This document shows positions 22,126 through 38,376 of a stretch of 64,000 nt of DNA, piece by piece. The notes beneath the pieces are model-generated. The model made no database searches. It saw only the letters and a list, made by a program, of their open reading frames with translations, and had not been told where the DNA came from. Each line of letters starts with the position of its first letter. Position 1 is the stretch's first letter. Source of the stretch: Dissulfurimicrobium hydrothermale. GTDB lineage: Bacteria; Desulfobacterota; Dissulfuribacteria; Dissulfuribacterales; Sh68. The stretch is from contig NZ_CP085041.1 in NCBI RefSeq assembly GCF_022026155.1, forward strand, positions 1,086,306-1,150,305, given 5' to 3'. The position numbers were made by a program, and so were the translations under genes.

Positions 22126-23388
22126 ATGAAAAAACAGATCGCAAGCTTGATATGGCTTATCGCCATTATAGGATTCGTTATAGGGTGTTACGGCATATAC
22201 CAGAGGTTCGCCTTCGGGCACAGGTTGACCGATTACGGCTCCTACATCCCATGGGGCCTCTGGGTTGCAACATATATCTACTTCATCGGCCTTTCTGCAG
22301 GCTCCTTCCTTCTCTCTACCCTCGTTTACGTGGTCAAGATCGAAAAACTGGAAAAGATAGGCAAGCTCTCACTCTTTACCGCCTTTGGTTGTCTGATAGC
22401 CGCGCTCATCTCCATCTGGCTCGATCTTGGCCATGAATTCAGGGTTTACAGGGTTATCCTCCACCCCAACTTCAAATCCATGATGTCCTGGATGGGTATA
22501 CTATACTCAAGCTATTTCGTGGTCATCCTGTTTGAGCTCTGGTTTGCAATGCGGGTAGATCTCATCAAAACGGCCTCAATCGGGACAGGGCTCATTGCGG
22601 CTGTCTGTCGATTCCTCGCGCTTGGAAGTTCAGACACCTCGGATAAGTCAAGGGCCAGGGACAGCAGGGTCTTAAAGGTCCTGGGTTCCATCGGCGTACC
22701 CCTTGCCATCGCATTCCACGGCGGGGTCGGTATGCTCTTTGCTGTAGTAGGTGCGCGCACTTACTGGCACAGTGGACTGACGCCGATAGTATTTCTTGTG
22801 GGGGCGCTTGCATCAGGCGGGGCGCTTCTGACCGCCATCGTCTATGTCTGGGGACCTGACAGAAACAGACCTCAATTTGAAGACATGATGCGGTTTCTGG
22901 GCAAAATAGTCCTGTCCCTTGTCCTTTTAGACCTACTGTTTGAGATATCCGAATATTTTGTTGGCATGTATGCCGGTATCCCTGACGAGGCCATACCGAT
23001 AAAGGCGGTGCTCTTCGGGCATTACTGGTACGTATTCTGGGTCGTCCATGTCCTTTTCGGTGTCATCGTACCTGTCTGGATATTCACCAGAAACGCCGTA
23101 TCAAGACCTGTTGGAAAAACCAGTCCAGGGGCTATCGCCTTTGCCGCACTGCTGGTGGCAGTCACCTTTATGGCGCTGAGACTCAATATCGTCATTCCGG
23201 CCCAGATAAACCCGGAGATAGAGGGGCTTCAGTATGCCTTTATGGGCCCAGGACTTAACTACACATATCTGCCGACCGTATCCGAGTGGCTGGTTACTAT
23301 CTGGATCGCATCTTTTGGGCTGCTTCTCTTCCTGATCGGATACAACGTGCTCCCAATAGTAAACAAAGATGATAAGGAGGTTGCATAA
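22126..23388 (+). CDS. NrfD/PsrC-family membrane subunit
   Basis: A 420-residue polytopic membrane protein with about ten helices that anchors the complex and exchanges electrons with quinone. The start MKKQIASLIWLIAIIGF, GSYIPWGLWVATYIYFIGLSAGS and FHGGVGMLFAVVGAR fit the NrfD/PsrC family. The ATG at 22126 has a strong AAGGAGG 8 bases before it and falls 17 bases after the FeS subunit; the reading frame is open further upstream but that part overlaps the FeS gene. The stop overlaps the next ATG by one base. Confidence 0.9.
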   Translation: MKKQIASLIWLIAIIGFVIGCYGIYQRFAFGHRLTDYGSYIPWGLWVATYIYFIGLSAGSFLLSTLVYVVKIEKLEKIGKLSLFTAFGCLIAALISIWLDLGHEFRVYRVILHPNFKSMMSWMGILYSSYFVVILFELWFAMRVDLIKTASIGTGLIAAVCRFLALGSSDTSDKSRARDSRVLKVLGSIGVPLAIAFHGGVGMLFAVVGARTYWHSGLTPIVFLVGALASGGALLTAIVYVWGPDRNRPQFEDMMRFLGKIVLSLVLLDLLFEISEYFVGMYAGIPDEAIPIKAVLFGHYWYVFWVVHVLFGVIVPVWIFTRNAVSRPVGKTSPGAIAFAALLVAVTFMALRLNIVIPAQINPEIEGLQYAFMGPGLNYTYLPTVSEWLVTIWIASFGLLLFLIGYNVLPIVNKDDKEVA

Positions 23389-26300
23389 TGAGCGCCAAAA
23401 AACAGGAAAAAGATATGAAGACAAACAAGGTTATCGAGGTTGATGGCGAAAAGATACATATACAGATGACCCGCAGGGGTTTTTTAAAGAGCACTGCGTT
23501 CCTGGGCGGCCTTGCGGCGGCATCTCAGGTCCCGGGCCTTGGACTCCTGGAGACTGCGAGGGCAAAGGGTCTTCTTGGCAACAACTATCCATTCGACAAC
23601 GCGGAAAACGTCATCTATTCATGCTGTCTCCAGTGCCATACCGCGTGCACCATCAAGTGCAAAATATTAGACGGTGTCATGGTGAGCGTGGCTGGCAATC
23701 CATATAGCCCTATGAACATGAACCCTCAGCTTTCATATGACACAAAACCCCAGGAAGCAGTCCTGTATGATGGTCGTCTCTGCCCAAAGGGCAACGCAGG
23801 GGTCCAGACCCTCTATGACCCGTACAGGATAAGAAAGGTCTTGAAGAGAAAGCCCGGCACCAACCGTGGTGAAAACAAATGGATCACAGTGGACTTTGAT
23901 CAGGCCATAACCGAGATAGTAAACGGCGGTAACATCTTTGGCGAAGGAAATGTCCCTGGACTTAAAGAGATTTACGCGGTTCGCGACCCTGCCATTATGA
24001 AATCCCTGAAGGAAGACTCTGAAAAGGTCGCAAAGAAAGAGATGAGCCTTGATGACTTCAAGTCGAAGCACCAGGAATACCTCCACCTCCTTATAGACCC
24101 GGATCACCCTGACCTTGGCCCGAAGAACAACCAATTCGTATTCCTGGCCGGCCGTATCGAGGGTAGCAGGCATGAATTTGCAAAGAGGTGGACCAAGGAC
24201 GCCTTTGGATCGGTCAACTGCTATGAGCACACAACCGTGTGTGAACAGTCACACCATATAGCATACAAGCAGTTTACGGCCTCATACGAATATGACAAGA
24301 AAAAATGGAAAGACGGCAAGGCCCATATGAAACCGGATGTGCCGAACTGCGAGTTTGTAATCTTTTTCGGCACAAGCCCGTTTGAGGCGAACTTCGGCCC
24401 GACGAGCTGGACGTCATACATCATGAACGCCCAGGCGAAACGCAATTTCCGTTTTGCCGTGGTTGACCCGCGGCTCAGCAATACCGCGGCCAAGGCAAAC
24501 TACTGGGTGCCAATAAAACCAGGTGGAGATGCGGCCTTTGCCCTTGGCATGGCGAGATGGATCATCGAAAACAACAGATATAATGAGGCCTACTTAAGGG
24601 CGGCAAACCGCGTGGCGGCCAAGGCAAACGGGGATACCACCTGGTCCAACGCATCTCACCTTGTCATGCTCTCTAAAGACGGGAAGCGCGGCGAGAGGCT
24701 GTTGAGAAGCGATGACTGCGGGCTTTCTCCATCTGATCGCTTCGTCGTAAGCGCAGGGGGAAAACTTGTGGCCTTTGACCCCTATACAGAAGAGGGCCAG
24801 CCAGTAGTGGGCGATCTCCTTGCCGAAGGCGAGATAAGAGGCGTCAAGTACAAGACGGCATTTTCGCTCTTTAAGGACGTCGTCATGGAAAAGGGCCTTG
24901 ACGAGTGGGCCGAAGAGGCGGGCATCCCGGTCAAGCAGATAATAGAGGTCGCCAGGGAATTCACCAGCCACGGCAGAAAGGCCGTGGCTGACATGTACCG
25001 CGGCCCGGTACAGCACACGAATGGCTACTATAACGGCCGGTGCATACTCGCCCTAAATCTTATGGTCGGCAACGGCGACTGGAAGGGCGGCCTCTCGGCA
25101 GGAGGCGGCGGCTGGGATATGGACGGCGGCAAGGAGGGGCAACCCTTCCCGTTAAAGACGCTGCATCCCAATAAGCTTGGTTCTTTCGGGGTGCATATCA
25201 CCAGGGAGCAGAGGCATTATGAGGATACCACCATGTTTCAAAAATATGGGTATCCGGCCAGGAGGACCTGGTATCCATATACCGGCGATGTCTATCAGGA
25301 GGTGATCCCGAGCGCGGCCGACGGATACCCATATGCCATAGGGGTGCTCTTTATACACATGGGCACCCCAGCCCTTTCAGTCCCGGGGGCGAATTCGACC
25401 ATCGATATCTTACGTGATCCAAAAAAGATACCCCTCGTATTGTCCGACGACATCGTAATTGGGGAGACCACGATGTATTCGGACTACATCTTCCCTGACA
25501 CCGCTATATGGGAAAGATGGACAACGCAAAGCTGCCCTCCGAACATCTTGACAGCTTCAAGTACTGTGAGACAGCCTGCTGTGGAACCCCCCACGGAGAT
25601 ATGCACTGTTTTCGGCCAGAAACAGCACATCTCGATGGAGGCCGTGATGCTTGCCATTGCCGAAAAACTGGGGCTTTCCGGTTACGGGCCGGACGGCTTC
25701 GGACCAGGCATGCCGTTTACCCATCGGGATGAATATTATCTTAAGTTTGTCGCCAACATCGCCTATGGCAACAAGGCCGGTAAAGACAAGGCGCCCATTG
25801 CGGATCAGGAAGAGCTCGAACTCTTCAGAAAGGCAAGGAGGCACCTTTCCAAGGCGGTCTTTGATGAAGAAAGATGGAAAAAGGCCGTTGGCAATGATGA
25901 AGATCTCTGGCGCAGGGTCGTCTACGTGCTAAACCGCGGCGGGCGTTTTGAAGACGCAAGCAAGGCATACGAAGGCGACAAGGTAACGCATCAATATAAA
26001 AATCAGTTCAACCTGTTCTGTGAGGCGGTGGCCACTGGAAGACACAGCATGACAGGGAAGAACTTCTCCGGTCTTCCAATTGCCGAGCCAGTGCGTGACG
26101 CAGCGGGCAGAGATATCCATTTCTCAGGCGAATTTCCATTCCAGCTCTTTACCTACAAACTGATCATGGGCGGTCAGTCAAGAACCATAGGTAACTACTG
26201 GACCATGGTGGCCCAGCAGGGGCAGAACTATGTTCAGATGAATAGACGGGATGCAGAGAAATTTGGCCTCAAAGACGGAGACCTGGTGCGTCTTGAGGGA

Positions 26301-26612
26301 CCAACCAACCTCAAAGGGACCATCCCGCTCTTGCCGGGCGTTGAGAAACCTGTGACCGGCGTGCTCAAGACCGAGGAAGGCATACGCCCCGGAACCGTGG
26401 CTGTAAGCTGGAGTTACGGCCACTGGGCCTACGGTTCACAGGATGTGTCGGTTGACGGCGCACTTATCAAGGGGGACAAGAGGCGCGCAACAGGTATCTG
26501 TCCGAACTCAGTAATGATGGTGGATCAGACAGTCAAAAACACATGCCTCTCCGACCCGATCGGCGGGAGCTGTTCCTTCTATGATTCATGGGTCAGGGTG
26601 GTAAGGGCCTGA
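23388..26612 (+). CDS. Tat-exported molybdopterin oxidoreductase catalytic subunit (TtrA/PsrA/ArrA-like)
   Basis: A 1074-residue catalytic subunit of the DMSO-reductase superfamily. A twin-arginine signal (TRRGFLKS, residues ~28-35) is followed by a hydrophobic stretch and ARA cleavage region, placing the enzyme in the periplasm. One 4Fe-4S site is formed by Cys80, Cys83, Cys87 and Cys132 (LCPKGNAG). HTTVCEQSHH at ~281-290 offers Cys285 as a possible molybdenum ligand, as in polysulfide, thiosulfate and tetrathionate reductases. The length fits TtrA and ArrA better than the shorter PsrA/PhsA. The rhodanese lipoprotein next door favours a sulfur substrate, but the exact substrate and direction cannot be settled from sequence. 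Confidence 0.85.
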   Translation: MSAKKQEKDMKTNKVIEVDGEKIHIQMTRRGFLKSTAFLGGLAAASQVPGLGLLETARAKGLLGNNYPFDNAENVIYSCCLQCHTACTIKCKILDGVMVSVAGNPYSPMNMNPQLSYDTKPQEAVLYDGRLCPKGNAGVQTLYDPYRIRKVLKRKPGTNRGENKWITVDFDQAITEIVNGGNIFGEGNVPGLKEIYAVRDPAIMKSLKEDSEKVAKKEMSLDDFKSKHQEYLHLLIDPDHPDLGPKNNQFVFLAGRIEGSRHEFAKRWTKDAFGSVNCYEHTTVCEQSHHIAYKQFTASYEYDKKKWKDGKAHMKPDVPNCEFVIFFGTSPFEANFGPTSWTSYIMNAQAKRNFRFAVVDPRLSNTAAKANYWVPIKPGGDAAFALGMARWIIENNRYNEAYLRAANRVAAKANGDTTWSNASHLVMLSKDGKRGERLLRSDDCGLSPSDRFVVSAGGKLVAFDPYTEEGQPVVGDLLAEGEIRGVKYKTAFSLFKDVVMEKGLDEWAEEAGIPVKQIIEVAREFTSHGRKAVADMYRGPVQHTNGYYNGRCILALNLMVGNGDWKGGLSAGGGGWDMDGGKEGQPFPLKTLHPNKLGSFGVHITREQRHYEDTTMFQKYGYPARRTWYPYTGDVYQEVIPSAADGYPYAIGVLFIHMGTPALSVPGANSTIDILRDPKKIPLVLSDDIVIGETTMYSDYIFPDTAIWERWTTQSCPPNILTASSTVRQPAVEPPTEICTVFGQKQHISMEAVMLAIAEKLGLSGYGPDGFGPGMPFTHRDEYYLKFVANIAYGNKAGKDKAPIADQEELELFRKARRHLSKAVFDEERWKKAVGNDEDLWRRVVYVLNRGGRFEDASKAYEGDKVTHQYKNQFNLFCEAVATGRHSMTGKNFSGLPIAEPVRDAAGRDIHFSGEFPFQLFTYKLIMGGQSRTIGNYWTMVAQQGQNYVQMNRRDAEKFGLKDGDLVRLEGPTNLKGTIPLLPGVEKPVTGVLKTEEGIRPGTVAVSWSYGHWAYGSQDVSVDGALIKGDKRRATGICPNSVMMVDQTVKNTCLSDPIGGSCSFYDSWVRVVRA

Positions 26613-26630
26613 GGTAAAAGCGCTGACGAT

Positions 26631-27410
26631 ATGACAACGAGGACGTTGCTCTACTACACGGTCATCTTCATGACCCTCCTTCTCACACTGGACGGTTGCT
26701 CAGGCGATGGGGGCCAAAACCCTCCAGCCCCAGCGCCTGAGAACAGCCGCCAGACTGGGGCATTACCCCCAACAGGGGATGCCGCCTCGCTGATACAAAA
26801 GGGAGAAGATGCATTCAAGGCGGCAAGATACAAGGATGCCGTATCATTCTACAGACAGGCCGTCTTGCTGACACAGCCAGGATCCGCGGGGTCTTCAAGG
26901 TCTCCAAAGTCACCAAAGTCAGATGATGTCTGTACCCTCTACAACCAGGCGCTTCTGGCCTGGGCCGGGGATCAGTACCTCTCATCCATACCTAAAGACA
27001 GATACGAAATCCCGCCTGGGCGATTCTCGGCAGACATAAAGCAGGGCAAAAGGTATTTCATTGTCGATGTAAGGGAACCGTATGAATTCGACAAGGGCCA
27101 CCTTGAAGGGGCGATAAATATCCCGCTTCGGGAGTTTATGAAACACCTTGATCTGCTTCCAGGGAAAGGGGCCTCGATACTGCTTGTCTGCCATACAGAG
27201 AGGCGGGCCAACCATGTGTTGGTGATCTTGAGGGAACTTGGATACTCAAATGTATATGTACTTAAGAGTGGCTATGAGGAATACCTCAAGTGGCTTAAAA
27301 ATCCAAAAGAAGGGGGTGGTAGTAAACAAAATGGAGGTAAGGGTCCATCATCGCATAAACCTAAAAGTTCACCAAATGGTTCGGATGAAGAAGAGGATTT
27401 CGGATGTTGA
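26631..27410 (+). CDS. Rhodanese-domain lipoprotein
   Basis: A 259-residue lipoprotein with a leader ending LDGC (Cys ~23), a short TPR-like helical region (DAFKAARYKDAVSFYRQAV) and a rhodanese domain at ~130-225: FIVDVREPYEFDKGHLEGAINIP, then the active-site loop beginning at Cys in LLVCHTERRA. Rhodaneses carry sulfane sulfur as a Cys-persulfide. The C-terminal ~35 residues are a low-complexity tail of Gly, Ser, Lys and Pro ending in acidic residues and Cys. It lies 18 bases after the catalytic subunit, so it is probably part of the same operon and may accept or deliver sulfur for that enzyme. Confidence 0.85.
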   Translation: MTTRTLLYYTVIFMTLLLTLDGCSGDGGQNPPAPAPENSRQTGALPPTGDAASLIQKGEDAFKAARYKDAVSFYRQAVLLTQPGSAGSSRSPKSPKSDDVCTLYNQALLAWAGDQYLSSIPKDRYEIPPGRFSADIKQGKRYFIVDVREPYEFDKGHLEGAINIPLREFMKHLDLLPGKGASILLVCHTERRANHVLVILRELGYSNVYVLKSGYEEYLKWLKNPKEGGGSKQNGGKGPSSHKPKSSPNGSDEEEDFGC

Positions 27411-28903: not shown

Positions 28904-28985
28904 GCCTTATTAAATAAGGCACTCTAAAGACCCCCCTGTCCTTTAAGGCTAAACCTTCATGAAGGCCTTAGAGACAAGTTCCGCT

Positions 28986-29014
28986 GCGGGCGAGATTATT
29001 TCGCCCGCATTTTT
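28986..29014 (+). terminator. Rho-independent terminator after the porin gene
   Basis: GCGGGCGA and TCGCCCGC form a perfect 8-base G+C-rich stem with a 7-base loop, followed by ATTTTT. It lies 83 bases after the porin stop. A second, weaker hairpin (GCCTTA...TAAGGC) begins right at the stop codon, at 28904-28920, without a T-run. Confidence 0.75.
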
Positions 29015-29038
29015 AAAGTAAAGGGAGGATATGGGAAA

Positions 29039-30287
29039 GTGGAATTCCTATATAAAAAACTACAATTTGTAATGCCCCTTGTCATAATTGCGGCGTTTTT
29101 TATCTTCAGCCCGGCTGTCTTTGCAAATGATGAGGCGTCTATCAACACCCTTATGGAGCAGATGAAAATGATCCAGGCCAGGATGTCCGAACGGGATTCC
29201 GCCCTTCACAAACTGGTGGAGGAGACAGAGGCCTTAAAGAGTGAGCTTGCGGATTCAGTTTGAGCCTGGACACACCAATAACAATATTTCTACTACAAAT
29301 TCCAGTTCTCGCCGCACAGATATCTCCATCCGCCATGCGGTCATGGACTATACGTTCCGGAATGGCGTAGAGGCCAAGGCCGGAATAGTACCCTTGAGCG
29401 ATGCCTTTGATGATATACTCTTTTCATCTGACTGGGACTACAACCCAGTGGCCCTCTCAATTGAGAAAGACCTCGGCCCTGGCAGGCTCAAGGTCTTCGG
29501 CGCACAGCTGAACGAAGGCGACGAGCCCATTGCCCACGATGATTTCTCTCATTACCAGATAGATTATAGATTTAAACCGACAGAGGGTTTTACACTGAAC
29601 ACGGGTGTCACCTGCGCCGATGTAGCTGACGCCTATGGAACGCATACCAAACCACACATCAATTATGGCCTTGGCGCCATGATAGATCTCGGAATGGGCC
29701 TGAAGGCCAAGGCCATCCTGCTTGGTTCCCATACCGACAGACATCTCCTTGCGGCCAGCAGAGACGGAGAAGGCCTTGCCTCCAAGATCGAACTCGCAGG
29801 AACTGTCGGAAAGGACAGATTTGGCCTCATGGGCACATACGCCTCAGGCGAACGTGCGGCACGGGATTCCTTCTGGTCATGACCCTTGCAAAGACCTATG
29901 GTTATTGGGGCTACACAGGGCTTCTGACTGTTCAGGGCCCGACTGACACGGGCTTCGATGGTGATGCAGTCAATATTTCAAATAACGGCTATGGTCTTAC
30001 CACCTTTCAGACAAAAAGAGACGACACAGATATCTACCTTGGCGCCGGATGGTTTGGAAACAGCCGCACCCCAGATGGAAGGAGCAGCTATCTTGGGACA
30101 GACTTGTTGACCATATTGACCTATCACTTTACCAAGATACTCGCCTTGGATGCAGGGATGGCCTATGCCCATCTGGCCGACGGGGTAAGCGGGTACTCAA
30201 AAGGCGTGATTGGAGGAACAGCCTTCAACAGCAATACAGCCAGGGACAAGACGGCGTTTTTTTACAAGACTCCAGGTTAAATTCTGA
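29039..30287 (+). pseudogene. Second porin gene, disrupted by frameshifts
   Basis: Three consecutive reading frames read as one outer-membrane porin. Part 1 (from GTG 29039) has a signal peptide ending in VFAND and a coiled coil. Part 2 (~29241-29882, another frame) starts within RIQFEPGHTNNN and gives barrel strands such as VMDYTFRNGVEAKAGIVP. Part 3 (29879-30280, first frame again) continues TLAKTYGYWGYTG. The apparent end YKTPG is wrong for a porin; dropping one T from the seven-T run at 30257-30263 gives FFTRLQVKF and a stop at 30285-30287, a proper C-terminal barrel strand with terminal Phe. So at least three shifts separate it from a whole gene; some sequence is probably also missing at the first junction. 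Sequencing error is possible for any one, less so for all. Confidence 0.75.
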
Positions 30288-30365
30288 TTATTTGTGTGCG
30301 AAGGTTTTGTGTCGGGATTGAATTGCGGATTGCAGTCTTGCTGCGTTGGCACCAATCATTCTGAT

Positions 30366-31112
30366 CTATCTTTCTTTAAAATACCTGATGAGGGCGTTCA
30401 GTGTCGTCATCGGGTGCGGAGGGCAGCCCGGAATGTAGAGGTCCACTGGCAGGAGGGTCTCAAGGGGTATGATCTCAGGGCTCCCCCTGAAAGGCCCGCC
30501 GGAGATAGCGCAGCTTCCGGCTGCGATTACCAGCTTTGGCGAAGGTACGGCCTCATAGGTCATTAAAAGCGCCCTGGCCATATTCCGGGTGACAGGGCCG
30601 GTGACGTGTAACCCGTCAGCGTGGCGCGGGGACGCCACAAACTGGATGCCGAAACGGGAGAGGTCATAAAATGGGGTGTTCAGCACGTTTGTATCCGCCT
30701 CGCATGCGTTGCAGCCGCCGGCTGAGACCTGCCGGAGTTGCAGAGACCTGCCGAAAAGGTCTTTGAAGCGCTTCTTTGCATTGGCTGCGATATCCGGGAG
30801 ATTTCCATCTGTTATCAGGTGATCGCGTTGCGTTGCAGCGAGTTCAAAGTTGTTTGTAAATCTGATGAATTCCCCTTTGGATATCCTTTCGCACAGACCG
30901 CAGAAGACACAGCGTCCGAGGTCGATCAGCCTGGTTCCAGGATCAATAGCGTCCTGCGGGCATGAGGCTGCGCACTTCTCTACAATGTTCTGGTCGCAAT
31001 TGAGGTTCAGCCTTGGGAGACCCTTAAAAGCGGGGTGTAGAGTGACCTCTTTGCCGGGATAATTGCAGGTCTTATAGCCTTGATGAATCCTTGTCCTTAT
31101 TAATTTAAACAT
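30366..31112 (-). CDS. Ehr-like complex: small subunit, NuoB/HyfI-like with ferredoxin-like N-terminus
   Basis: A 248-residue fusion. Residues ~35-80 are ferredoxin-like with KCAASCP and CVFCGLC, enough for one 4Fe-4S cluster; a second cluster looks incomplete. The C-terminal ~140 residues are the NuoB/HyfI small-subunit fold with all its cysteines: GGCNACEAD, AAGSCAISGG and YIPGCPPHP, which hold the terminal (N2-like) cluster. In formate hydrogenlyase these are two proteins, HyfH and HyfI. It is the last gene of the operon and would pass electrons to the large subunit encoded just upstream. Confidence 0.85.
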   Translation of the reverse strand: MFKLIRTRIHQGYKTCNYPGKEVTLHPAFKGLPRLNLNCDQNIVEKCAASCPQDAIDPGTRLIDLGRCVFCGLCERISKGEFIRFTNNFELAATQRDHLITDGNLPDIAANAKKRFKDLFGRSLQLRQVSAGGCNACEADTNVLNTPFYDLSRFGIQFVASPRHADGLHVTGPVTRNMARALLMTYEAVPSPKLVIAAGSCAISGGPFRGSPEIIPLETLLPVDLYIPGCPPHPMTTLNALIRYFKER

Positions 31113-31149
31113 GTTTTCTTGTCCTCAAGAGGGTCATTATGCCCGCCTG

Positions 31150-32724
31150 TTACAGATCAAATCCGCAGTATGACAGGTTGAAGCTCTTGTTGTTCAAAGG
31201 GAAGTCCGATATCTCTTCGTTTCGAAGCGCCATGGCCAGGCCCATCCAGTTGTGGAATGAAGGGTCTTTGATCTTGTAGCGAAGTATCCCGCCCTTTGAA
31301 TCCGTGAGCACGCAATGCGAAAGCTCCCCCCGCCAGGCCTCGTTGATTGTCACCACCAACGAATCGGGTTCAAGGGCCGCATCTTCTTCAAGAGGCGCAT
31401 TTAAGGTCTCTATCGGGCCGCGGCCAGTGAGTAGTTCAATAATATCAAGCGAATGCAGTATCTCTTCATATCTTACCCAGGCCCTGGACAATACGCCCCC
31501 GTTGGTCCTTTCATGAAGACATGGGGGCAACTCAGCATACTTTTCAGTTGGAAAATCACGTCTTGCGTCATAATCAATGCCAGAGGCCCTGCCAGCCACG
31601 CCTACCATGTCGATTTCCCTGCTCACTACACCGCAGCCTTCAAGACGGGCAAGTACTGTGTGGGCTGTAAAAAGGAGATCGGCCACCTCCAAAATTTCAG
31701 GCCTCAGGGCCCTGATCCTGTCAAGGATGAATTGTCTTGAGTCTTCGGAAAGACCCGCCGTTACGCCGCCGGGCCTGATAAGGCCCTTGCCGAACCTGTT
31801 GCCGGAGAGGACAAGTAGGAGGTTTAGAAATTCACCCCTTATTCTCCCGAAATATGCGGCGCACGAATTGAACGCCACGTCCCCGCTCAGCGCCCCCAGG
31901 TCCCCGACATGGTTGGCTATGCGTTCAAGCTCTAGTGCGACCGTGCGGATTATTTTTGTCCCATCGTCTATTTTTTTACCGCTTAAAGCCTCTATCGCCT
32001 GAGAAAAACAAAGGCTGTTTCCTATGGCCGTATCCCCTGCGATACCCTCTGCTATCACGGGCAGCCGTTTAAACGGGACCGAGGCAAGGAGTCTTTCTAC
32101 CCCGCGGTGCTGATAGCCAAGCTGTATCTCAAGGTGCAAGATCCTTTCTCCGATGCACTGAAAACGGAAATGCCCTGGCTCAATGATCCCTGCATGTACA
32201 GGACCTACGGCAACTTCGTGTATCTCTTCGCCCTCTACCTGAAAGTAGGGATAATTTCCTGGTATGTCTTTATTATAGTCGTTGTCGAAGACGTCTTTAA
32301 CCCCTCGCCAGTTGGTGTGATAACGTACCGGTTTCAGCCATGGGTGCCCGAGCGGGGTCAGGCCGAATTGTTCTGCTATCTCCCGCTCGAAGAGCTGAAA
32401 TTTTATCTCATGCTGGCTCAGAGACTCGAAGGATTCAGGCGCCGTGGTCTGTATCGCATAGAGATGACCGCCCATTCTCATGACAGCCAGGAGTTGAACC
32501 GAGCCCTCTTCTTCATAGCCGAAGAATTCCCTTGAAGGGGCGTTGAAGTTCAAGGAAATATCCTGTTGAACCAGGGGGTCTTCTTTATAGCCAAAAAATT
32601 GCACCACCGAGGCGCCCCTGGCTGCTACCCGCAGAAGACCTTTGCAGAAATCAGCGAAATTCAGATAGGGTATGGCCCTGCGGCCGATCATTTCTCCATT
32701 TTTGATCTCCAGAAATTTATCCAT
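31150..32724 (-). CDS. Ehr-like complex: large subunit, NuoCD/HyfG-like without Ni-Fe ligands
   Basis: A 524-residue fusion of a NuoC-like N-terminal part (~1-160) and a NuoD/hydrogenase-large-subunit-like part. In [NiFe] hydrogenases the metal is held by two CxxC pairs; here the first site reads EGIAGDTAIGNS with no Cys pair, and the C-terminal site reads FNLSYCGFDL, keeping only one Cys. The protein also ends here, with no cleavable extension. It therefore cannot be a normal [NiFe] hydrogenase. The start overlaps the end of the preceding antiporter-like gene by 8 bases. Its electron partner is unknown. Confidence 0.85.
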   Translation of the reverse strand: MDKFLEIKNGEMIGRRAIPYLNFADFCKGLLRVAARGASVVQFFGYKEDPLVQQDISLNFNAPSREFFGYEEEGSVQLLAVMRMGGHLYAIQTTAPESFESLSQHEIKFQLFEREIAEQFGLTPLGHPWLKPVRYHTNWRGVKDVFDNDYNKDIPGNYPYFQVEGEEIHEVAVGPVHAGIIEPGHFRFQCIGERILHLEIQLGYQHRGVERLLASVPFKRLPVIAEGIAGDTAIGNSLCFSQAIEALSGKKIDDGTKIIRTVALELERIANHVGDLGALSGDVAFNSCAAYFGRIRGEFLNLLLVLSGNRFGKGLIRPGGVTAGLSEDSRQFILDRIRALRPEILEVADLLFTAHTVLARLEGCGVVSREIDMVGVAGRASGIDYDARRDFPTEKYAELPPCLHERTNGGVLSRAWVRYEEILHSLDIIELLTGRGPIETLNAPLEEDAALEPDSLVVTINEAWRGELSHCVLTDSKGGILRYKIKDPSFHNWMGLAMALRNEEISDFPLNNKSFNLSYCGFDL

Positions 32725-34144
32725 TTATGCCGCCTCCTATGGTGGAGATGGCCTTTAATATGGTCTGGTAAAGCGTATCAGGCATCCAGATTGAAAGACC
32801 TGCAGAGACAAGAAGGAGGATACAGGGCGGCGCAAGGCGCATAAACTTTTCGCCAACCAGCAACTCGCCGTTAAAGTTGCCAAACGACATGCGGATCACG
32901 CCCTTTGACGCCCCGGCGAAGACAAGGATGAGGCTTATGATAAAGATGCCGAGGCTGATATATGCACCTTTTCTAAGTGCCCCCAGTATGATCATGAGTT
33001 CACTTAAGAATATGCCGAACGGTGGAAAGCCCGAGATGCCGGCAAAACCTCCCATGAATGAGATGGATGTGCCGGGCATGAAGAGCGGCATCCTGCCTGT
33101 CTCCTTGATCTTTTTGCTGCCATAGCCAAGAAGTATGTTCCCTGACGTAAGAAACAGCGAAGATTTTATCAGTGCGTGATGAATCAGGTGCAGCATGGCA
33201 CCGAAGGCTGCAAGTCCGCCTATACCGGTTCCGAATGCGATAACCCCCATGTTTTCGATGCTTGAATAGGCGAGGAGGCGTTTGTAATTATCCTGCTGCA
33301 TGATGAATACCGCAGCCACCACCATGGATATGAGCCCGAAGACCACGAGGATGCGGCCTGAATACCACCCAAGCCCAGCTGCCTGCATAATTCCGTGTGT
33401 CTTGTAGATGCCCAGAAAGGCGCAGTTTAAAAGCGCCCCGGAGAGCAGGGCCGATACAGGACTTGGGGCCTCGCTGTGTGCATCAGGCAGCCAGGTGTGC
33501 ATTGGGGCGAGCCCCATCTTGGTGCCGTAGCCGATCAGGATAAAAATGAAGCCGGCCTTGAGCCATGTCGGATCAAATCTGCCTGATGCCCTTGCAAGGT
33601 CTGTAAAGGTGATTGGCACATTGATGTCGCTTGTATCTATGGCGAGGATGGTGAAAAAGACGCCGAGGAGGGCCAGAGCTATACCGACCGAGCAGATCAT
33701 GACATACTTCCATGTTGCCTCGAGTGCCTCCTTTGATTTGTGCAGAAAGATAAGCGGCGCGCTCATGAGGGTGGTGGCCTCGATGGCGATCCAGAGGACG
33801 ATGATGTGGTCAGTCACCGCCACCATGCTCATTGCGCCCAGGAAAAGTAGCATACAGCCTGCAAAGACCGGTTCGTTGTGCATCTCCACCTCTGCCATGT
33901 ATGAGACGGTGTATGCCGCGATCAACAGGTACAGAAAAGAGGTCACGAGAAGCACTATCTGCCCCTCTGGAGCGATGCCAAAGTAAGGCGCCCAGTAGGG
34001 CGCGACGCCCTTCAGCCAGATTGAGGCCGTAAATGCGAGGTGAAAGACCCCGGCCATGATGAGCAGGAAGCGCCCTGCTGTTCGCGGCAGAAAAAAGGTT
34101 ATGACGCCCAGAAAGACAGGTATGATAAAGATAAGCTCTAACAT
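32717..34144 (-). CDS. Ehr-like complex: antiporter-like membrane subunit (HyfF/NuoN-like)
   Basis: A 475-residue membrane protein with about 14 helices of the proton-translocating NADH-quinone oxidoreductase family (Proton_antipo_M). The key charged segments are present: WIAIEATTLMSAP with Glu in a helix, and GYGTKMGLAPMHTWLPDAHSEAPSPVSALLSGALL with the Lys and the loop that follows it. It is expected to move H+ or Na+ across the membrane, driven by electron transfer in the hydrophilic arm. Twelve bases separate it from the HyfE-like gene. Confidence 0.88.
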   Translation of the reverse strand: MLELIFIIPVFLGVITFFLPRTAGRFLLIMAGVFHLAFTASIWLKGVAPYWAPYFGIAPEGQIVLLVTSFLYLLIAAYTVSYMAEVEMHNEPVFAGCMLLFLGAMSMVAVTDHIIVLWIAIEATTLMSAPLIFLHKSKEALEATWKYVMICSVGIALALLGVFFTILAIDTSDINVPITFTDLARASGRFDPTWLKAGFIFILIGYGTKMGLAPMHTWLPDAHSEAPSPVSALLSGALLNCAFLGIYKTHGIMQAAGLGWYSGRILVVFGLISMVVAAVFIMQQDNYKRLLAYSSIENMGVIAFGTGIGGLAAFGAMLHLIHHALIKSSLFLTSGNILLGYGSKKIKETGRMPLFMPGTSISFMGGFAGISGFPPFGIFLSELMIILGALRKGAYISLGIFIISLILVFAGASKGVIRMSFGNFNGELLVGEKFMRLAPPCILLLVSAGLSIWMPDTLYQTILKAISTIGGGING

Positions 34145-34156
34145 GGCGATATATTT

Positions 34157-34810
34157 TTATCCTTTTAGCCGCTCAAGAAACATGGTGTCAGCATCATCGA
34201 ATGAGCGGCTTATCTGGTGCAATATGATGCCCATAATCATGATCCCGACCAGGAGGTCCAGAAGTACGCCGAATTCCACGATAAACTGTGTATGAGTCTG
34301 TTTGGCAAGGGCGGAGCCCGCGAGATATATGCCGTTTTCCATCATGAGATAGCCGATCACCTGGGTAATGGCCTTGCGTCTGGCCATCATCAGAAAGAGA
34401 CCTGCCGCCAGGGTAGTGAATGCAGCTGGCAGGAGGAGTTGATGGCCGCTTAAACTTACTGGTTCCATACGGTTGCTGATGAAGGTCGCTACAAGGATTA
34501 TAAAGAGTCCGGTCAGGATGGATGCATGATAGCCTACGATGGGCTCCGCATCCCTCTTGATCGAGACCTTGCGGCTTGCAAACCACAAAAGAAAAGGGAT
34601 AATCCCGCCCTTGATGGCAATGAGCACCAGGAGAAAACCTATGTCAAGCCAGCTTGTTTGTTCATGCCTTTCCAGCAGAAACGGGACAAGGGAGACAAGC
34701 ACCCCCTGAAAACTCATGATTCTTATAAATTCCTGAAGCCGGCTGCCGCCAATGGACAAAAGTACGGATAAAAGGATCAGCACAAGCAATACGTCAGGCG
34801 TATTGATCAT
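34157..34810 (-). CDS. Ehr-like complex: HyfE/NuoK-related membrane subunit
   Basis: A 217-residue protein with about six to seven helices, similar to HyfE of the hydrogenase-4 complex, which holds a NuoK-like C-terminal part (QVIGYLMMENGIYLAGSAL, with Glu in the helix). The start codon overlaps the stop of the NuoH-like gene by one base. It is a structural membrane part of the ion-translocating arm. Length and order match hyf operons; identity otherwise rests on hydrophobic pattern and a few motifs. Confidence 0.82.
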   Translation of the reverse strand: MINTPDVLLVLILLSVLLSIGGSRLQEFIRIMSFQGVLVSLVPFLLERHEQTSWLDIGFLLVLIAIKGGIIPFLLWFASRKVSIKRDAEPIVGYHASILTGLFIILVATFISNRMEPVSLSGHQLLLPAAFTTLAAGLFLMMARRKAITQVIGYLMMENGIYLAGSALAKQTHTQFIVEFGVLLDLLVGIMIMGIILHQISRSFDDADTMFLERLKG

Positions 34811-35724
34811 TATTTTAGCTCCAACACGAGGATGGTGGCGAAAAAGGCAAGGGCAAAGGATGTAAGGATGAATTTTGGCACAAGTCCCATCTTGAATCTT
34901 GCCGTGATCGATTCTATGACACCGACTAGGGCATAGATTACCGAAATGGCCACAAAAAACGATGCAATGCCGGCAAACCCCACTGTCGGCCTTGAGGGAA
35001 GTACCAGGTTGGCAATGAAGGCCGCATAAAAAAAGAGTTTCAGGAATGCCCCAAGTTCGATAAACGCCAGGTCAGGGCCGCTGTGGTCCAGTACCATGAC
35101 CTCGTGGATCATGGTGAGCTCCAGGTGGGTGGCCGGATCATCAACCGGAACCCTGGAGTTTTCTGCAAGTAGGACCATGAACATTGCAGCGATTACAAGG
35201 AGCAGCAGCGCCCCCTCAGGCCGCCAGAGGTTGATGACGTCCGGGCCGGTAAAGTAGCCTGTAAGGCTCAATGAGCCGGTAAGCCGGTAAAAGAGGACAA
35301 GGACCGTAAAGACCGCGGCCTCGCACAAAAAGGCAAAATAGGCCTCACGCGCTGCCCCCATGCCTTCAAAGGGCGAGGCCGTGTCCAGCGCCGCGCATAT
35401 GGTGAAGAAGCGGGCAAGGCCGAAGAGATAGAACACCAGTATGACGTCGCCCTGGAATGAAAGGATGGGGGCTGCCCCGGCAAACGGCATAAAGAGCAGG
35501 GCGGTCATGGACGCCGCAAGGGAGATCACAGGGCTTAAACGGAATATAAATGTGGTCGAGGCGCTGTACACTGAGCCTTTGGCAAGGAGCTTCGCCAGGG
35601 TGAAATAATTGATGAAGAGAGGCGGGCCCTGCTTTCCGACCAGAAAGGCCTTTACCTTCTGGATGATGGTTGAAAAGAATGGCGCCAGAAAAAGAAAAAT
35701 AATGAGAAGAACCAGGCCCTCCAT
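34810..35724 (-). CDS. Ehr-like complex: NuoH/HyfC-like membrane subunit
   Basis: A 304-residue protein with about eight helices, the connector between the hydrophilic and membrane arms. VKAFLVGKQGPPLFINYFTLAKLL near the N-terminus, ENSRVPVDDPATHLELTMIHEVMVLDHSG and further helices are characteristic of HyfC/NuoH; the acidic residues match those proposed for the quinone/proton path. The start is the ATG at 35724, with GGAGG 7 bases upstream, rather than an in-frame Met 24 bases earlier that would overlap the previous gene. Confidence 0.9.
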   Translation of the reverse strand: MEGLVLLIIFLFLAPFFSTIIQKVKAFLVGKQGPPLFINYFTLAKLLAKGSVYSASTTFIFRLSPVISLAASMTALLFMPFAGAAPILSFQGDVILVFYLFGLARFFTICAALDTASPFEGMGAAREAYFAFLCEAAVFTVLVLFYRLTGSLSLTGYFTGPDVINLWRPEGALLLLVIAAMFMVLLAENSRVPVDDPATHLELTMIHEVMVLDHSGPDLAFIELGAFLKLFFYAAFIANLVLPSRPTVGFAGIASFFVAISVIYALVGVIESITARFKMGLVPKFILTSFALAFFATILVLELK

Positions 35725-35728
35725 AGGA

Positions 35729-37702
35729 TTACCTCCAGAGTCCGGCAAGCAGCAGGGCAGCTATAGCTATCACGATATATGCGATGTAGAGCTGGATGTT
35801 GCCGTGCTGTATCCAGCGCAGGTGCCTCATAAGCCGCACTATGGGCAGGGCCATCCAATTGACCTCAAGGTCTTCTGCTATATCATTAAGCCTTGAATGA
35901 TAGCTTGCCCTTGATGGAAACACCCCTGCCGGACCGATGTATTCCTCATGCACCGGTGCAACCGGCCGAAAAAATTCAAGGATGGATGCGGCAAAAGAGG
36001 CGCCGGTATATTGGATCCTCGGACTCGGCCTGGTGAAGCCGCACCCCCATGTAGGACCAAGGCCCGTCTCTTTCGCCCTGTAAAAACCCTTTCGCATCAT
36101 GGCGACTATCACAAGTAAGACTAAAAATACTACCGCACCGAGCGAGATATCCTTGCACAAGGTCATCAGGTCTGAATAGATTGTGTTGTCATAAGGCGTC
36201 TTTGCAAGTAGCGTGGCCGCCGCCATTGCTGAAGGTCCAACGAACAGGGCCGGGGCGAGTCCTATGGCAATTGAGCACACAGCCAGGATTCCCATTGCGT
36301 AAAGCATGGAAGGATCTGATTCGTGCGCCCTTCCGGCCTCATCTGTCCTTGGCTCACCCAGAAAGACGATGCCGATCACCTTTGTAAAACAGGCCACGGC
36401 CAGCCCGCCTATAACGGCAAGGGAGATAACGGCCAGCATAACTAATAGAAAGTCTGTCTTTTCAAGGGTTCTGCCCTGGAACGCCCCGTTGTAGATAAAA
36501 AATTCGCTCACAAAGCCGTTTAATGGCGGAAGCCCGCAGATGGCGACAGAGCCGGCAAGAAAGGTAAGACCCGTAATCTTCATCCGCTTCATAAGCCCGC
36601 CCAGTCTGTCGATCGCAAGCGTGCCCGTACCGTGGAATACGCTTCCTGCGCCCATGAAGAGCAGGGCCTTGAAAATGGCGTGGTTTAACACATGCATGAG
36701 ACCGCCTGTAAAGCCCAGAAAGGCCATGGCCGGATTGCCGACCGACACCCCTGTCATGCCAAGACCAAGGCCTATCAGGATGATGCCGATATTTTCAATG
36801 CTGTGATATGCCAGTAGCCGCTTGAGGTTATGCTGTCCCATTGCATAGACTACGCCCAGCACCCCTGAGACGATCCCGAAGATGAGGATGCCCCTTCCGA
36901 ATATGACCGAATCCGGGCTTAGTGCGAGGTACAGCCTCAGGATGCCGTAGATACCCATCTTGATCATCACGCCTGACATGAGGGCCGAGACATGGCTCGG
37001 CGCTGCCGGGTGGGCATGGGGAAGCCAGATGTGAAGCGGAAAGACGCCGGCCTTTGAGCCAAATCCTATAAATGCCAGGAAAAAGACCAGGAGTTTTATA
37101 TCAGGTAAAAGGGATGCCGCGGATGTGAGGTTGAATGAGCCGGTTACGGCGTAGATGACGCCAAAGGCGGCGAATATAAAGAGCGCCCCTGCCTCGGTGA
37201 AGATAAAGTAGATATAGGCCGCATGCCTGGTCTCTTTCTGTTCATAGTCGTAGACTACGAGAAAGCAGGATGAGATGGACATGAATTCCCAGGCAAGCAG
37301 AAATGTGACCATGTCATCCGCCATGACAACAAAGGCCATGGCCGCGATAAGGAGGCTGAAAAAGAGATAGTGGGCCGCAGTTCTCAGGCCCTTTGTCTGA
37401 TCGCTCAGATAGTGAAAGCTGTACAGGGCTGAAAGAGACCCTATCAGAAAGATGGGGATGAGAAAGAAGGCGGTTAGCGTATCCACGTGGAGCGAGAGCG
37501 GCAGGATATGGAGCCATGTCCAGGCTGCAGCCGCAGGTCTTGCCGTATAAAGGCTGTTTATGGCCCCGGACAGGCCTATCATACACCCCAGGGAGATGCC
37601 GCCTGCGGCTAAGGCCTTTAAAAGGGTGAACCTTTTATAAAAGAAAAGGGGCAGGACGCCAGAGGCCAGGATTGTGATCAGGGATAAAAAAAGCGGCTTC
37701 AT
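35729..37702 (-). CDS. Ehr-like complex: antiporter-like membrane subunit (HyfB/NuoL-like)
   Basis: A 657-residue membrane protein with some 16 helices, the larger of the two antiporter-like subunits. LLAWEFMSISSCFLVVYDYE has the conserved helix Glu, and FIGFGSKAGVFPLHIWLPHAHPAAPSHVSALMSG has the conserved Lys and loop; HAIFKALLFMGAGSVFH has a further His/Lys. The C-terminal ~140 residues, with a soluble segment YTGASFAASILEFFRPV, match HyfB. Its ATG overlaps the stop of the regulator gene as ATGA, coupling regulator and complex synthesis. Confidence 0.9.
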   Translation of the reverse strand: MKPLFLSLITILASGVLPLFFYKRFTLLKALAAGGISLGCMIGLSGAINSLYTARPAAAAWTWLHILPLSLHVDTLTAFFLIPIFLIGSLSALYSFHYLSDQTKGLRTAAHYLFFSLLIAAMAFVVMADDMVTFLLAWEFMSISSCFLVVYDYEQKETRHAAYIYFIFTEAGALFIFAAFGVIYAVTGSFNLTSAASLLPDIKLLVFFLAFIGFGSKAGVFPLHIWLPHAHPAAPSHVSALMSGVMIKMGIYGILRLYLALSPDSVIFGRGILIFGIVSGVLGVVYAMGQHNLKRLLAYHSIENIGIILIGLGLGMTGVSVGNPAMAFLGFTGGLMHVLNHAIFKALLFMGAGSVFHGTGTLAIDRLGGLMKRMKITGLTFLAGSVAICGLPPLNGFVSEFFIYNGAFQGRTLEKTDFLLVMLAVISLAVIGGLAVACFTKVIGIVFLGEPRTDEAGRAHESDPSMLYAMGILAVCSIAIGLAPALFVGPSAMAAATLLAKTPYDNTIYSDLMTLCKDISLGAVVFLVLLVIVAMMRKGFYRAKETGLGPTWGCGFTRPSPRIQYTGASFAASILEFFRPVAPVHEEYIGPAGVFPSRASYHSRLNDIAEDLEVNWMALPIVRLMRHLRWIQHGNIQLYIAYIVIAIAALLLAGLWR

Positions 37703-38376
37703 GGCCTTTTGGAGAATATCTCCCCCTCCTTTTTCTGGATAAAGGACAACAGCTCTTTCCTTGTCATATGCAGTTTGATTCCCTCTATAAACTCGTTATC
37801 CATTGAGAGGCGGCGAAGTTTCATGTCTATAATGGCCTGTTCAGCCCTGTTGGCTGGCAGCGTAAGAAATATTATGCTTGTCTTTATATCGTCCATTGCC
37901 TTGAAGTCTGTCTCTTCTTCAAGAAATGCGACAATGAGCATTGTTCTTTCAAAAAAGACAGGGCGCTCAACGCTTGGCGTCATGAATGCGATTCCTTTCA
38001 ATGAAGACGAGACCAGGGATTCGTTGGCAAAGATAGAGATCTTAATGGCCTTTTTATCAAAGGAGGCCGAATAAGGGATGGCGGAAAGGAGTTCATCTAT
38101 AGCCTCGTCGCGGTTGCCTCCTTGGACACGATAGATGACGGTCCCATTTTCAATGGCCTTATGGACTGTGATGGCTGAATTTATCCTCCTGTTTCCTGTC
38201 TCGGTGTTGGTTTGGGCGTTTATCCAGTCCTCCATAGCATCCGCCCTGAAACGCCACTGTCCGCCAATCTTGACCGCGAACGGGAGCTGATTTTCATTGA
38301 GCATGCGATAGATTGTTTTATCAGAAACACCCAATTTTAAAGCAACATCCTTGATCGCAAGGAAGGTTTTGTCCAT
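37699..38376 (-). CDS. Regulator: excisionase-type HTH plus EIIA-like (PtsN-type) domain
   Basis: A 225-residue protein. Residues ~1-55 are a MerR/excisionase-type DNA-binding domain (LGVSDKTIYRMLNENQLPFAVKIGGQWRF). Residues ~65-215 resemble the PTS EIIA type-2/PtsN fold (KAIENGTVIYRVQGGNRDEAIDELL...LLSFIQKKE). The phospho-acceptor His found in EIIA is absent; the aligned position is Thr133 in GIAFMTP. It probably senses something by binding rather than phosphotransfer. I chose the ATG at 38376 because it starts the HTH and lies ~40 bases from a good promoter; the frame is open upstream. First gene of the Ehr-like operon, likely autoregulatory. Confidence 0.75.
   Translation of the reverse strand: MDKTFLAIKDVALKLGVSDKTIYRMLNENQLPFAVKIGGQWRFRADAMEDWINAQTNTETGNRRINSAITVHKAIENGTVIYRVQGGNRDEAIDELLSAIPYSASFDKKAIKISIFANESLVSSSLKGIAFMTPSVERPVFFERTMLIVAFLEEETDFKAMDDIKTSIIFLTLPANRAEQAIIDMKLRRLSMDNEFIEGIKLHMTRKELLSFIQKKEGEIFSKRP

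Follow-up and report, generated by a model that had tools for sequence, protein, structure and literature searches.

An Ehr-type complex of Dissulfurimicrobium hydrothermale with a conserved pocket in place of the [NiFe] site, and the graded reduction of electron entry predicted for its family

The closest described relatives of the complex considered here are the Ech-hydrogenase-related (Ehr) complexes known from Geobacter sulfurreducens (GSU0739-0745), comammox Nitrospira, Margulisbacteria, and the Candidate Phyla Radiation (CPR), which share with it the subunit set, a fused small subunit, and the absence of the [NiFe] cysteines. The Geobacter complex is composed of NuoL-like, HyfE-like, large and small subunits, its abundance is higher in cells grown on formate, and a role in reverse electron transport has been put forward (PMC7894505). 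Further relatives are hydrogenase-4 (Hyf) and formate hydrogenlyase (FHL) of Escherichia coli, respiratory complex I in its 14- and 11-subunit forms, and the Pyrococcus complexes MBH and MBS. The subject of this report is an Ehr operon of Dissulfurimicrobium hydrothermale, located on the minus strand at positions 30366-38376 of a 64,000-nucleotide stretch of contig NZ_CP085041.1 (positions 1,086,306 to 1,150,305), hereafter called the window. The host genome is a single contig of 2,025,450 bp, and the type strain, Sh68T, is an obligate sulfur-disproportionating autotroph of the Desulfobacterota, which fixes CO2 by the Wood-Ljungdahl pathway and does not grow on H2; the operon is not named in the hydrogen section of the paper that describes these properties (PMC8780430).

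The operon consists of seven genes arranged head to tail, with spacings between neighbours that range from -20 bp (an overlap) to +37 bp, in the order helix-turn-helix (HTH)-EIIA regulator, HyfB, HyfC, HyfE, HyfF, the NuoC/NuoD-like large subunit EhrL, and the HyfH-HyfI fusion EhrS. An initial annotation, made from the letters alone, had described a six-gene set close to the membrane arm of hydrogenase-4/FHL combined with NuoB- and NuoCD-like parts, and had labelled it Ehr. Both statements hold: all six structural genes are present with strong family matches and find their counterparts in E. coli Hyf (gene order and homology B-C-E-F-G-(H)I), and the composition is the one reported for Geobacter. 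With complex I the operon has in common NuoB, NuoC, NuoD, NuoH, the antiporter-like core and the pump residues. Unlike Hyf and FHL, it lacks HyfA, HyfD and HyfJ, along with the metal ligands and the maturation tail discussed below, and its HyfH and HyfI are fused and shortened. In phylogenetic trees, EhrL forms one clade with the Geomonas orthologue (L101; support 99-100), the named Ehr anchor of a set without the G. sulfurreducens sequence, and this clade stands apart from HycE/HyfG and NuoD. Together with a large subunit devoid of the NiFe CxxC pairs, and HyfB-, HyfC-, HyfE- and HyfF-like subunits encoded with EhrL and EhrS, this placement assigns the operon, on sequence grounds, to the Ehr family as already described; losing the metal site is on record for Ehr and is therefore not new. 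Relatives of EhrL with 43-75% identity occur in Desulfobacterota, Omnitrophota, Planctomycetota, Verrucomicrobiota, Acidobacteriota, and others, and within the host's phylum 27 of 148 genomes encode one at E <= 1e-70.

EhrL (31150..32724, minus strand) is a NuoC- and NuoD-like protein of 524 residues (NuoD/PF00346, 5e-30). Its nearest solved relatives by sequence (phmmer against the PDB) are HycE (2e-38) and MbhL (3e-37), ahead of the NuoD-type subunits, and its best fold match (Foldseek) is HycE as well (7z0s_E, 2e-27). When EhrL is aligned with E. coli HycE/HyfG, the motif C-G-I-C falls on A229-G230-D231-T232 and C-Y-S-C on S518-Y519-C520-G521, so that none of the four positions that hold the ligands in group 4 [NiFe] enzymes (A229, T232, S518 and G521) is a cysteine. 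The initial annotation had seen no CxxC at the first metal site and one cysteine at the second; both pairs are indeed gone, and the single cysteine is C520, which is off the ligand positions. Because C520 lies between two of these positions and varies among relatives (Cys in 49/56, Ala or Ser in 7/56), the alignment excludes the alternative that the cysteines are displaced but present. Nor does the genome encode a second group 4-type large subunit that could take the place of this one, its other large subunits being one NuoD and one group 1 NiFe hydrogenase, which is encoded separately at 1.89 Mb together with the hyp genes. EhrL ends with D523-L524, three residues past the last ligand position, and for this reason has no C-terminal maturation tail when compared with HycE/HyfG; the large subunit of complex I likewise ends just past the second ligand site. 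The four NiFe cysteines of EhrL have thus been replaced and not displaced.

The pocket is strongly conserved, with E182, H185, H206, G230, D231, R465, H470, K513, S518, Y519, G521 and D523 invariant in 56/56 EhrL relatives, which come from many phyla. About 18% of all columns of the EhrL alignment are invariant, and therefore invariance by itself does not demonstrate catalysis; conservation at the replaced ligand positions is roughly equal to that in the remaining EhrL core. E182 aligns with a HycE glutamate and with E21 of MbhL, a proton-transfer (proton-gate) residue, and is retained together with R465 and H470, all three of hydrogenase type, while D231 and K513 are found in none of the hydrogenases or NuoD proteins compared. 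Judged from these alignments, the pocket of EhrL appears to be rebuilt, a conserved replacement that is not decaying, which refines the earlier description of a site simply lost.

The small subunit EhrS (30366..31112, minus strand; 248 aa) joins a HyfH/NuoI-like N-terminal domain (HyfH/HycF-like, 5e-15) to a NuoB/HyfI-like domain (NuoB, 1e-32). Its fusion to a ferredoxin-like part, noticed in the initial annotation, is real and family-wide, although the ferredoxin part is reduced to one complete four-cysteine set (C51, C68, C71 and C74), as opposed to the two of the Geobacter type, Ehr-2. The NuoB/HyfI-like domain carries the ligands of the proximal cluster (C134, C137, C201 and C230) and matches MbhJ and HycG, with a full CxxC and no deletion relative to MbhJ, whereas in complex I the corresponding N2-type cluster is bound by adjacent cysteines. 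In the two-cluster ferredoxin fold, as in NuoI, three cysteines of the first motif bind the outer cluster (N6a-type) and one binds the inner cluster (N6b-type), and the second motif does the reverse.

Cluster ligands were counted in 46 curated small subunits, namely Ehr-2 (n=18), Ehr-1 (n=21) and Ehr-0 (n=7). Both ferredoxin-type sets are present in 15/18 of the Ehr-2 proteins. All Ehr-1 proteins (21/21) have the inner set, with C44 in 0/21 and C78 in 1/21, and therefore normal assembly of the outer cluster is impossible; neither set is found in Ehr-0 (0/7). Proteins that have lost a single cluster always lack the outer one. The distribution of these states agrees with the tree of EhrL, a different gene, on which 3 to 5 changes account for all rows: Ehr-1 is a clade (support 100/100), the studied operon falls in a well-supported one-cluster Desulfobacterota branch, and the outer cluster has been lost separately in two small lineages (L093/L096 and L086). 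Of the two trees, one recovers Ehr-0 as a single clade, and the other, which has a very long outgroup branch, places it at the root as a paraphyletic group, so that we are unsure of the direction of change in Ehr-0. We read the counts as a graded erosion of the electron entry, to two, one or zero ferredoxin-type clusters, with the proximal cluster always kept. The cysteines of the latter are present in 46/46 small subunits, which makes it very probable that the complex is still redox-active. A full-text literature search, outside whose coverage the original Ehr papers fall, returned no description of the one- and zero-cluster branches or of the invariant replacement motif.

The stepwise loss of the ferredoxin-domain clusters, down to none in Ehr-0, would also suit a residual or non-redox complex, in which a one-time hydrogenase has been retained for ion antiport or as a gated channel while its redox arm degenerates. 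However, a decaying arm is unlikely to be so conserved across phyla, with the proximal ligands kept in all branches and the pocket invariant, and we find this explanation very unlikely. The proximal cluster bears equally on the proposal that Ehr is a sulfane sulfur or polysulfide reductase like MBS, in which the proximal cluster would reduce polysulfide directly. MBS is the characterised relative that, like Ehr, is NiFe-free (PMC7684303), the host disproportionates sulfur, and a TtrA-like molybdopterin oxidoreductase with a twin-arginine translocation (Tat)-type leader, followed by a rhodanese lipoprotein-like gene, is encoded 3-4 kb from the operon (window 23388-27410). Yet MBS retains two metal-site cysteines, compared with 0/4 in Ehr, and a three-cysteine proximal cluster (PMC7684303). 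It requires this site-differentiated cluster, which arises from a motif three residues shorter, and EhrS has instead all four cysteines and the full, MBH-like CxxC. MBS also lacks E21, which Ehr shares with MBH; Ehr is found as well in Planctomycetota, Verrucomicrobiota, Geobacter relatives, and others; and the TtrA-like enzyme, because of its Tat-type leader, should act beyond the cytoplasmic membrane. Such a reductase is, in our view, highly improbable.

EhrA (35729..37702, minus strand; NF005086, 9e-175) is a HyfB-like antiporter-type proton channel subunit with a C-terminal extension, EhrB (34810..35748, minus strand; PF00146, 2e-29; start TTG 35748 or ATG 35724) is a HyfC-NuoH-like membrane anchor, EhrC (34157..34810, minus strand; NF008556, 2e-21) is a HyfE-like (NuoJK-like) membrane subunit, and EhrD (32717..34144, minus strand; NF005044, 1e-96) is a second, HyfF-like, antiporter-type proton channel subunit. 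The HyfB- and HyfF-like proteins retain the Glu/Lys series of antiporter-type subunits, as E139, K217, K248 and K345 in EhrA and as E122, K209, K288, K327 and E382 in EhrD, and the acidic loop of EhrB, ENSRVPVDDPATHLELTMIHEVM, is conserved; for these pump residues and for the loop, conservation reaches 90% or more across some 57-64 relatives. The operon encodes one HyfB, whereas many Ehr-2 loci encode two.

From the subunit make-up, the loss of the NiFe ligands, the conserved pocket, the cluster ligands and the pump residues, we infer a redox activity together with its probable donor, acceptor, direction and coupling ion. The simplest role would be that of a membrane ferredoxin/menaquinone oxidoreductase working in either direction; an 11-subunit complex I of Desulfitobacterium is believed to accept ferredoxin electrons (PMC11238625). 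The complex, a member of the complex I superfamily, would descend from a Hyf/FHL-type hydrogenase whose NiFe centre was lost. Electrons could be exchanged between a soluble carrier of low potential, for which ferredoxin is the likeliest candidate, the one inner cluster of EhrS and the proximal [4Fe-4S] cluster, and the acceptor, most likely menaquinone held in a manner unlike that of complex I, would sit in the remade NiFe pocket; the redox step would then power the movement of H+ through HyfC and through the two antiporter-like subunits, HyfB and HyfF. In the host the complex may run in reverse, with the proton gradient and quinol electrons yielding reduced ferredoxin for the Wood-Ljungdahl pathway.

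The host genome encodes carbon monoxide dehydrogenase (CODH), POR and the futalosine-pathway genes for menaquinone. It has no PF01512 protein, and therefore neither NuoF nor RnfC, and its complex I comprises 11 subunits (NuoABCDHIJKLMN, without NuoEFG; L117:8839-19430, genome 836.8-847.4 kb). For these reasons few other membrane routes are visible for ferredoxin electrons, and, in an organism that does not grow on H2, Ehr would be one of few visible candidates for supplying reduced ferredoxin to CO2 fixation.

Several observations weigh against this assignment. The complex I residues H38 and Y87, defined as those of the quinone headgroup (PMC7684303), are absent from EhrL, where they correspond to I181 and G230, although the host's own NuoD retains both; quinone binding must therefore be different or absent. 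In the structure model of EhrL, the predicted local distance difference test score (pLDDT) is <50 at residues 176-183 and 520-524, which are pocket loops, so that the model does not reveal the shape or filling of the pocket. Ehr-0, with no ferredoxin-type cluster at all, fits poorly with ferredoxin as a universal input. The 11-subunit complex I of the host could fill the same role. Finally, no conserved redox partner gene stands beside Ehr in 80 loci, where only regulators, transporters and unrelated genes were seen, and both neighbours and genomes were sampled to a limited extent. Because the quinone residues are missing and Ehr-0 has no ferredoxin-type cluster, our reading of Ehr as a ferredoxin/menaquinone oxidoreductase that pumps protons, has a non-canonical pocket and possibly works in reverse for CO2 fixation is tentative, somewhat short of an even chance, and leaves room for another substrate.

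The same pocket residues can be read as a new catalytic site, formed by the invariant D231, K513, E182 and H185, for a non-quinone small molecule, in a complex that would still pump ions. The loss of both quinone residues, the retention of the hydrogenase-type E182, R465 and H470, and the restriction of D231 and K513 to Ehr among the proteins compared all speak for it. On the other hand, the gene neighbours point to no substrate, and many hosts are respiratory, so that quinone is the natural acceptor there; this alternative is doubtful. A broader formulation, which we regard as unlikely, is that Ehr constitutes a distinct class of ion-pumping oxidoreductases with its own active site (E182, H185, D231, K513 and S518-Y519), whose substrate would be either a molecule other than quinone or quinone handled by unknown chemistry, and with an inlet shortened from its outer end (two, one, zero clusters), such that in some lineages the donor would reach the proximal cluster directly. 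Ehr occurs in many phyla, and a conserved and specific pocket combined with a clade-dependent inlet provides concrete residues and cluster counts to test.

Gene neighbourhood also bears on whether Ehr is instead the membrane arm of a formate-dependent complex working with an unlinked formate dehydrogenase (FDH). An arrangement of this kind (FDH-Ehr) has been proposed for Riflemargulisbacteria and Saganbacteria (PMC6349859), the Geobacter complex increases on formate (PMC7894505), and the host encodes FDHs (PMC8780430). However, no FDH gene, the linked partner typical of FHL, was found in the operon, the Ehr neighbours that were clustered and read in the 80 loci include no recognised FDH gene, a NuoE/NuoF-like bridge is missing in a genome without PF01512, and CO2 fixation accounts for the FDHs of the host. 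The observation in the initial annotation that no NuoEFG, FDH or CODH genes adjoin the operon stands, and we consider the formate-dependent complex quite unlikely.

The first gene of the operon (37699..38376, minus strand; start ATG 38376 or TTG 38466) overlaps EhrA by 4 bp and encodes a regulator with an excisionase-type HTH (PF12728, 1e-14) and an EIIA-like domain of the phosphotransferase system (PF00359, 3e-5). Many Ehr-2 and Ehr-0 operons begin with an HTH-EIIA gene; of the Ehr-1 operons examined, that of the window alone has one directly in front. The phospho-histidine is kept in most relatives (GIAIPH), but the window's protein reads GIAFMTP and has lost it, as have those of four Desulfobacterota or proteobacterial loci (L076, L082, L091 and L099).

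Some neighbouring genes were recorded in passing. A porin-like gene (window 28950-30330) is split across two reading frames, apparently by two frameshifts. SulP-type anion transporter genes lie near Ehr in five loci of different phyla (L072:2301-3983, L073:393-2123, L075, L081:6047-8248 and L087) and are not general. In Desulfobacterales, a conserved protein of unknown function with about 480-500 aa is encoded near Ehr (L063:12271-13788, minus strand, and 11 further loci), sometimes accompanied by CBS-domain and SLC13-like transporter genes.

Two other kinds of large subunit are of note. NuoCD-like large subunits of a second type (L011:1126-2802 and L012:1210-2811; ERFTGTSAFAHS, ending in SVAESDR) also lack the NiFe cysteines and lie on a long branch outside Ehr. 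Two group 4 NiFe large subunits of the host's phylum (L013:1387-2367 and L014:1393-2361, minus strand, from genomes G054 and G056) have in-frame TGA at the first metal-site motif, which reads AERI-U-GIC in L013 and AERI-U-GI-U in L014, and therefore selenocysteine may serve as one or both of the N-terminal ligands; in known NiFeSe enzymes this residue occupies the other motif. A similar hairpin follows 3' of the TGA in both loci, and G056 encodes a SelB above the cut-off.

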